A stretch of DNA of 33,410 nt, taken from the NCBI GenBank assembly GCA_024639325.1, contig JAHEIO010000041.1:1-33410 (forward strand). The letters run 5' to 3'. Numbering within the stretch: the stretch's first letter is position 1; every line of letters begins with the position of its first letter. This stretch comes from Gammaproteobacteria bacterium (GTDB taxonomy: Bacteria; Pseudomonadota; Gammaproteobacteria; Arenicellales; JAANXG01). The position numbers were made by a program, and so were the translations under genes. The notes under the pieces were generated by a model. The model was given only the letters and a program-made list of their open reading frames with translations, was not told where the DNA came from and did not search any database. Below, in pieces: positions 4,469 through 6,222 of the stretch.

Positions 4469-4598
4469 TGAACCATTACGGTGTCGGCTCAGTTGATTCC
4501 AGGCGCGGCAGGATATATGGGTCCGCGAACGTTGGATCCCAATCACCCCGGGTAACGGATGTGCTTTCCTTTGGCGTATTCATGATGGAGGACATTTG

Positions 4599-4979
4599 AT
4601 GATTAGAACAGCTCGAAGGTTGATGTCGGTTTTAGTCGCGATTGCGCTTGTATTTCCTGCGCACTTCCCCACGGCCATCGCGGAGATGATCACTACTGAG
4701 GCGGCGCTCGTAGCTGCCAACCGGCATAATCTGCTGACCGAGGCCGAGACATTTTTCCTGCAGGACAGGGTCGCCGCGCAGCTTTCCCAACTGGGCGTTG
4801 ATCGAAATCACGTCCTGGCACGCGTCCGATCCATGACCAGTCACGAGCTCACCGCACTCGCCCGAAAAATGGACTCGATGCCGGCCGGGGCCGGGGCGAT
4901 AGAGATAATCGGCATCGTTTTCCTGGTGTTGTTGATCCTCGAAATCGTCGGCGTCACGGACATTTTTAAAAAAATCTAG
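4599..4979 (+). CDS. PA2779-family small membrane protein
   Basis: The protein has 126 residues. I place the start at ATG 4599 rather than the in-frame TTG at 4596, because GGAGGA at 4587-4592 is correctly spaced only for the ATG. It has a signal peptide (about residues 8-28), an amphipathic helical region (30-92), a small-residue stretch MPAGAGA (94-100) and a hydrophobic segment (101-119) ending in DIFKKI. This matches the PA2779 family, which is usually found directly before a PA2778-type cysteine peptidase, as here. The biochemical role is unknown. The HELTALARK...PAGAG portion loosely resembles a double-glycine type leader, which would fit cleavage by the neighbouring C39-like peptidase; that is inference. 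The gene stops five bases before the MITE-like insertion. Confidence 0.85.
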   Translation: MIRTARRLMSVLVAIALVFPAHFPTAIAEMITTEAALVAANRHNLLTEAETFFLQDRVAAQLSQLGVDRNHVLARVRSMTSHELTALARKMDSMPAGAGAIEIIGIVFLVLLILEIVGVTDIFKKI

Positions 4980-4983
4980 CGGG

Positions 4984-5252
4984 CTAGTGCACCCCGTCGT
5001 AAATTCTGTGACACTCAGAGCCCCCCAAAAACACGGGGACAAGGCGCGCCTCGCAGGCAATATCCGGATATTGGCCAGAGGGGCAACGCAGTAGCCGTGG
5101 TTTTGGGGGACTCCCGCAGGGCGAATCGACAAACACCCGCCTTCGGCGTTGCATCCGCTCCCATTAGCTCGCTAGTGCTTCGCGGATGCGCCTAGAATTC
5201 GAATGCTTGTCGCTTCGCTGAATGTCACAGAATTTACGACGGGGTGCACTAG
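4984..5252. mobile_element. MITE-like inverted-repeat element
   Basis: A 269-bp element bounded by 35-bp terminal inverted repeats, 4984-5018 and 5218-5252, which match at 34 of 35 positions. Both ends begin with CTAG, which may be a 4-bp target duplication or part of the palindromic ends. Internally a second inverted pair (about 5022-5036 and 5095-5109, 14/15 match) encloses the perfect 16-bp palindrome CAATATCCGGATATTG, and GCATCCGC/GCGGATGC (5151-5158, 5182-5189) forms another stem. There is no transposase, so it would be non-autonomous. It lies between two genes that are normally adjacent, and its right repeat supplies the first 16 codons of the downstream open reading frame. I do not recognise the family. 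Confidence 0.85.
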
Positions 5253-6222
5253 GAACATCTTCCGTTCGACGGGAATTATAACGCTGCTGTTGCTGCTGTC
5301 CGCTTGCGCGAACCAATGGAGCGCGGTGGACCTTACAGACCGGCGGCCGGTCGACCTCGAAGACACGCCTTTCTATGCCCAAAAAGATTACCAATGCGGA
5401 CCCGCCGCACTCGCCACCGTGTTGGGTGCGAGTGGAATAGAAGTTACTCCTGACGCCCTAGTTCCCAAGGTCTACACGCCCGGGAGGGGGGGCAGTCTAC
5501 AAATCGACATGATTGCGACCACGCGCGGATACGCTCGAGTTCCGTACATCATCGACGCGGATATGTCTCATTTGCTGGATGAACTGGACGCCGCCAGGCC
5601 GGTGCTGGTTCTGCAGAACCTGGGATTCAGCTTCAAACCTTTTTGGCACTACGCCGTTGCGACTGGATATGATCCCATCCTAGGCGAAATCTATCTTCGG
5701 TCAGGGACGGAACGACGCAAGGTGATGCGTATGGGAAAATTTGAACGCACGTGGCGACGCGCCGAGGCATGGGCCGTGGTTGTATTGAAACCTGGCGAAC
5801 TGCCCGCGAATCCTGATAGCGGCAAACTACTCGAAGCCATGGTGGCGATGGAAACGATTCAAGGCCCGGATTTCATGGTGAAACTCTACCGCGATTTTCT
5901 TGAACACTTTCCCGGCGATCAAATCGCCAGGCTGGGACTTGCAAACGCACATTTGAATAATGGCGACTTGCGTCAGGCCATCCGGCTGTATCGTCATGTT
6001 CTGGCCATGGAGCGGAGCAACGTTGCCGCCGGCAATAACCTGGCAATAGCGTTAAGTCGGGCGAATTGCCCGGCATCTGCAATTGCGCGGGCGCAAACGG
6101 CGGCGAAATGGGCCCGTGATACAAACACGTTTCCAACCGAGAGCAAACGCACTCTCGATCAGGTAAGAAACGATGCCAAGGGCGCGTTCGATGACGTCCC
6201 CGGTTCCGATCTCTGTAATTGA
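5203..6222 (+). CDS. PA2778-family C39-like cysteine peptidase, TPR lipoprotein
   Basis: A 339-residue open frame. Residues 17-35 form a lipoprotein signal ending in the lipobox LLSAC (C35). A C39-like peptidase domain follows, with catalytic-type Cys65 in YQCGPAALA and His149 in WHYAVATGYD. The C-terminal half has TPR-like helices (about 210-310, with LGLANAHLNNGDLRQAIRLY). This is the PA2778 arrangement, a lipid-anchored peptidase next to a PA2779 protein. C39 domains cut leaders after double-glycine-like sites; the substrate of this family is not known. The ATG at 5203 and residues 1-16 lie inside the right end of the MITE-like element, no Shine-Dalgarno precedes it, and no ATG/GTG/TTG lies between the element and the hydrophobic core. 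The native start has therefore probably been replaced or lost. Whether it is still translated is uncertain. Confidence 0.8.
   Translation: MLVASLNVTEFTTGCTRNIFRSTGIITLLLLLSACANQWSAVDLTDRRPVDLEDTPFYAQKDYQCGPAALATVLGASGIEVTPDALVPKVYTPGRGGSLQIDMIATTRGYARVPYIIDADMSHLLDELDAARPVLVLQNLGFSFKPFWHYAVATGYDPILGEIYLRSGTERRKVMRMGKFERTWRRAEAWAVVVLKPGELPANPDSGKLLEAMVAMETIQGPDFMVKLYRDFLEHFPGDQIARLGLANAHLNNGDLRQAIRLYRHVLAMERSNVAAGNNLAIALSRANCPASAIARAQTAAKWARDTNTFPTESKRTLDQVRNDAKGAFDDVPGSDLCN

Follow-up and report, generated by a model that had tools for sequence, protein, structure and literature searches.

The window, the whole 33,410-nucleotide stretch of DNA that was analysed, contains an operon pair separated by a short inserted element. 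The upstream partner is a PA2779-family gene (4596..4979, + strand; NF033919, DUF6627), which scored 95 bits against a profile cut-off of 40 and whose TAG stop (4977-4979) lies within a CTAG. The downstream partner encodes a PA2778-family C39 cysteine peptidase lipoprotein with TPR repeats and the lipobox LSAC (5203..6222, + strand). The PA2778-like identity given to this peptidase in the first-pass annotation was upheld by an NF033920 score of 283 bits (cut-off 150), by a match spanning almost the full family model, and by its position beside the PA2779-family gene.

The element between the two genes occupies 4984..5252 (+ strand) when both CTAG copies are included, as delimited by its copies, terminal-repeat ends, and empty sites. 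By inspection, the left 35-bp terminal inverted repeat (4984..5018, + strand) is identical at 34 of 35 positions to the reverse complement of the right repeat (5218..5252, - strand), as had been claimed. Both repeats include CTAG, and the element end sequence is CTAG-TGTACCCCGTCGTAAATTCTGTGACATTCAG. The outer CTAG on each side (left copy 4984..4987, right copy 5249..5252) is a target duplication and lies outside the terminal repeat. Thus, the limits proposed earlier stand for the MITE together with its CTAG copies, but not for the element proper, which is 4988-5248. On the + strand, CTAGCGGGCTAG (4976..4987) consists of the stop CTAG of the upstream gene, followed by CGGG and the element's left CTAG. 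The ORF list of the 269-bp element contained no ORF of transposase size. Its predicted fold showed end-to-end pairing with an MFE of -148 kcal/mol and a z of -11.2 against shuffles. At the third base in from either end (4990 and 5246), the window copy carried the same rare change, TGCACC for TGTACC, which suggests correction between the two ends or descent from a source copy with both changes.

The genome and its relatives were searched with the 269-bp element. About 13 loci were found in its own genome at 89-100% identity, which excludes chance for the reality of the element; five were essentially full length, and the others were truncated or located at contig ends. The same-genus sister genome G001 contained 42 terminal-repeat ends at about 32 loci, ten end pairs being spaced 181-314 bp apart. 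Both genomes are fragmented draft assemblies, and the same ends were found at about 45 loci across them. Each copy differed from the consensus at 3-10 positions. The element was absent from two other same-genus genomes and from the remaining family members, and the sole further match among 100 relatives was a 48-base partial match in G089. The 26-base element end was absent from every other genome of the 369 searched in the class Gammaproteobacteria.

Exact orthologous empty sites were obtained for two copies (L109/L117 and L107/L139), with one CTAG when empty and two when filled, so the CTAG is the target duplication. The left edge was also clean in three further empty-site comparisons (L104/L140, L111/L121, and L079/L141). 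The target at element ends was CTAG and rarely TTAG, which fits a 4-bp YTAR target duplication. The element is short, lacks a transposase gene, and has terminal inverted repeats, dispersed copies, and target duplications with empty sites, all of which characterize bacterial MITEs. These results bear out the MITE-like nature first assigned to 4984-5252 from the sequence and identify it as a transposable element of the MITE type, short and non-autonomous. The very stable predicted fold could also be expected of a conserved leader or regulatory RNA of the operon. This explanation is extremely improbable: the copies adjoin unrelated genes, and the empty orthologous site in the sister already refutes it. 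Likewise, none of the four other relatives compared at the PA2779-PA2778 junction (G004, G006, G012, and G002) has the element there, and the 269 bp is not a conserved leader in these relatives or in the sister.

At 18 of about 45 loci, the CTAG occupied by the element supplies the TAG stop of an ORF 80 codons or longer, with Pfam support for 13. An insertion preference for stop codons was considered and rejected: such ORFs also end at 38 of 129 further CTAG sites in the retrieved DNA, and there is no clear preference beyond CTAG itself. The 13 element ends that lie exactly on the TAG stop of a Pfam-supported gene include L042, L077, L104, L107, L111, and L112. The CTAG duplication at such insertions restores the stop.

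The right end of the element is open in two of three frames, each with an ATG (the MLVASLNVTEFTTGYT and MSQNLRRGTL types), and the third frame is terminated by the TAG of CTAG. In-frame fusion is therefore easy and expected often, and most copies have an ATG with an open frame. In the window, ATG 5203-5205 begins a frame of 339 codons, and its first 16 codons, MLVASLNVTEFTTGCT (5203..5250, + strand), are borne by the element. Codon 17 (AGG, 5251-5253) spans the element edge, and the frame continues as ...GIITLLLLLSAC, just as the first reading of the sequence had it. The second element-borne ATG (MSQNLRRG..., 5222..5248, + strand) lies in another frame that stops early in the window copy and is in frame with downstream genes elsewhere. 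Among other copies, the MLVASLNVTEFTTGYT frame extends an arginase-family gene at L081, and the MSQNL frame extends a HupE/UreJ gene at L092 and, at L109, a gene with a weak match to Dyp-peroxidase. These three extended genes all keep an internal ATG, which is likely their native start. The window copy was the only one seen without a remaining native standard start.

Alignment with the sister locus (L025/L116), which lacks the element and whose peptidase orthologue is 92-93% identical, was used to trace the native start. From the PA2779 stop to the signal peptide, the sister sequence contains no ATG or GTG and only one TTG (L025:1839-1841), located 14 nt past the stop; its sole other start candidate before the hydrophobic core overlaps PA2779. 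Translation from this TTG gives MRATGIITLLSALLSAC, which ends in the same lipobox. In the window, the aligned codon is TTC (5260..5262, + strand), within AACATC TTC CGT TCG ACG compared to TTACAGC TTG CGT GCG ACG in the sister. When the window flanks were joined in silico with one CTAG, the junction read TAG CGG GCT AGG AAC ATC TTC CGT TCG ACG GGA ATT ATA ACG CTG CTG. This contains no ATG, GTG, or TTG ahead of the hydrophobic core, and the earlier claim about excision was therefore correct. The assembled sequence thus supports ATG 5203 as the only standard start remaining for the peptidase, with the loss of the old start hanging on base 5262 of a draft assembly. The proposal that the insertion destroyed the native start was not supported, since the sister TTG lies downstream of the insertion point. 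Instead, the native TTG was probably removed by a substitution before or after the insertion, with the sister state taken as ancestral.

The window element copy carries four private changes in 269 bp, and dS between the two peptidase orthologues is 0.116; from these values, the insertion fits a date after the split from the sister. Its main effect is that the peptidase gene was moved away from PA2779, the stop-to-start distance being 14 nt in the sister and 223 nt in the window. In G004, G006, and G012 the genes share a TGATG or ATGA overlap, and in G002 they stand some tens of bases apart.

Because the window has TTC where the sister has TTG and ATG 5203 is the only standard start, a start codon donated by the element is plausible. 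We propose, with a probability of roughly 0.55 and from sequence comparison, that the element landed in the operon, that its ATG now serves as the peptidase start, that the native TTG decayed, and that the protein gained 18 residues at its N-terminus. In the proposed order of events, a CTAG-targeting MITE inserted between the PA2779 gene and the PA2778-family peptidase gene at a site that is empty in the sister. The ATG and open frame at its right end then allowed the peptidase frame, as read from the sequence, to begin inside the element. The native TTG would have changed to TTC, probably as the element ATG made it dispensable. The resulting peptidase would carry about 18 extra residues before the old signal peptide (MLVASLNVTEFTTGCTRN then IFRSTG, preceding the hydrophobic stretch), probably at a reduced or uncoupled level. 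Cleavage by signal peptidase II at the lipobox cysteine (LSA|C) would take off the signal peptide and the whole addition together, leaving the mature lipoprotein unchanged. More tentatively, at slightly less than even odds, the MITE end acted as a ready-made start, with its ATG as the sole start of an operon gene, the host start decayed, and the remaining protein unchanged.

The peptidase may instead no longer be properly translated. It would then be a pseudogene in the making, uncoupled from PA2779, with an unselected TTG lost and a coincidental in-frame ATG; we consider this unlikely, at about one chance in four. The overlaps in G004, G006, and G012 suggest an ancestral translational coupling that was lost in the window, and the element end is built so that two of the three possible frames receive an ATG. 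Poor translation would also agree with the start region: no clear Shine-Dalgarno was found ahead of ATG 5203 (upstream GATGCGCCTAGAATTCGA), and two bases of this ATG are predicted to be paired in a read-through transcript (unpaired 0.05 and 0.02). The predicted RNA opens at ATG 5203 only for transcripts that start inside the element after about 5150, and no promoter-like site was detected on the element strand reading toward the peptidase. However, the 951-bp peptidase frame is open throughout, aligns with the family model along nearly the entire length, and contains a single indel, of 3 bp, compared to the sister. The dN/dS values against the sister, 0.295 for the peptidase and 0.192 for PA2779, are below 1, although they average over the whole time since the split, including the period before insertion and without a close outgroup, and thus cannot show selection after insertion.

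Less probable again is a start still at or near the native site, which would make the element ATG irrelevant. Base 5262 would then be a sequencing or assembly error and really complete a TTG, or a rare ATC (5257) or ATT (5275) would be used. The sister uses TTG at the aligned codon, initiation at ATC 5257 would produce the compact lipoprotein signal MFRSTGIITLLLLLSAC, and the G006 relative begins MFRSG at its overlapping ATG. However, ATC and ATT start codons are very rare, and the bases beside 5262 also differ from the sister, so the TTC is no isolated suspicious base.

If the element ATG is used, a mobile repeat has taken over translation initiation of a conserved operon gene, and the empty site in the sister makes the event traceable; gene callers will annotate such transposon-derived sequence as an N-terminus. 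If it is unused, this is a routine MITE insertion. There are published precedents among other bacterial elements for a start supplied by a mobile element, and the window copy is possibly one unusually clear case of start-codon takeover. The element represents a lineage-restricted MITE family of an already known kind, whose sequence appears to be new. MITEAba12 of Acinetobacter is likewise short and non-autonomous and carries start codons at its termini, and copies of it are reported to give neighbouring coding sequences their first four residues, MQQS (PMC6382973). However, it is 113 bp long and derived from ISAba12, whereas the present element is about 269 bp, targets CTAG, and has no parent that was found; in the window, moreover, the neighbour gene seems to be left without a start of its own. 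MITEPsy1 of Pseudomonas syringae is a short element of 100 bp with 18-nt repeats (GGAAGGTCTGAAAAAGCC) and a 4-nt target duplication of CTAG or YTAA (PMC3189936), but its sequence is unrelated. Small mobile repeats fused in frame to genes are also known as RU-1/ERIC, RU-2/YPAL, Correia/NEMIS, and Rickettsia palindromic elements (PMC2759123, PMC2229807). Their sequences and hosts differ from those of the present element, and many of the described cases concern new loci or fusions that are internal or C-terminal.

The commonest target duplication in the IS5 group is CTAG, with the consensus YTAR (PMC5493358), and an IS5-group affiliation of the element is suggested by this target alone. In contrast to the shared target, no transposase or end-sequence match was found, including among the PF01609 loci of the two draft genomes. 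No autonomous partner with matching ends was detected at PF00872 (own genome only), PF13546, or PF01609 transposase loci in these draft genomes, and the single-ended copies had no longer interior in common. A candidate autonomous transposon on G000:C312, with ends 4.7 kb apart, was rejected as two truncated copies flanking cellular genes, which by eye we take to be rfbC/rfbD-like, dinG-like, and tsaB-like.

Other CTAG-associated elements were observed in the same genomes. One element copy (L045:546-950, G000:C341) is interrupted by a nested insertion starting CTAGGGAAACTCTGATTAATTC, which resembles one terminus of the IS5-type insertion sequence at L145:1018-2207, itself bounded by a CTAG duplication. 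CTAG and short inverted ends flank two DDE_Tnp_1 transposase genes in G001 (L168:1294-2876 and L171:1141-3219), and several CTAG-targeting elements thus seem to coexist in the genus. A second repeat group in G000 and G001 starts CTAGCCCGCAT(TTCT or ATTG)CACCAG and has many copies at CTAG, partly on the same sites (e.g., L125:1497, L137:2927, L140:1810, and L141:1851). The sister PA2779 stop (L025:1822, CTAGCCCGTATTAC) and CTAGCGGGCTAG in the window may be remnants of this second, CTAG-bounded repeat family.
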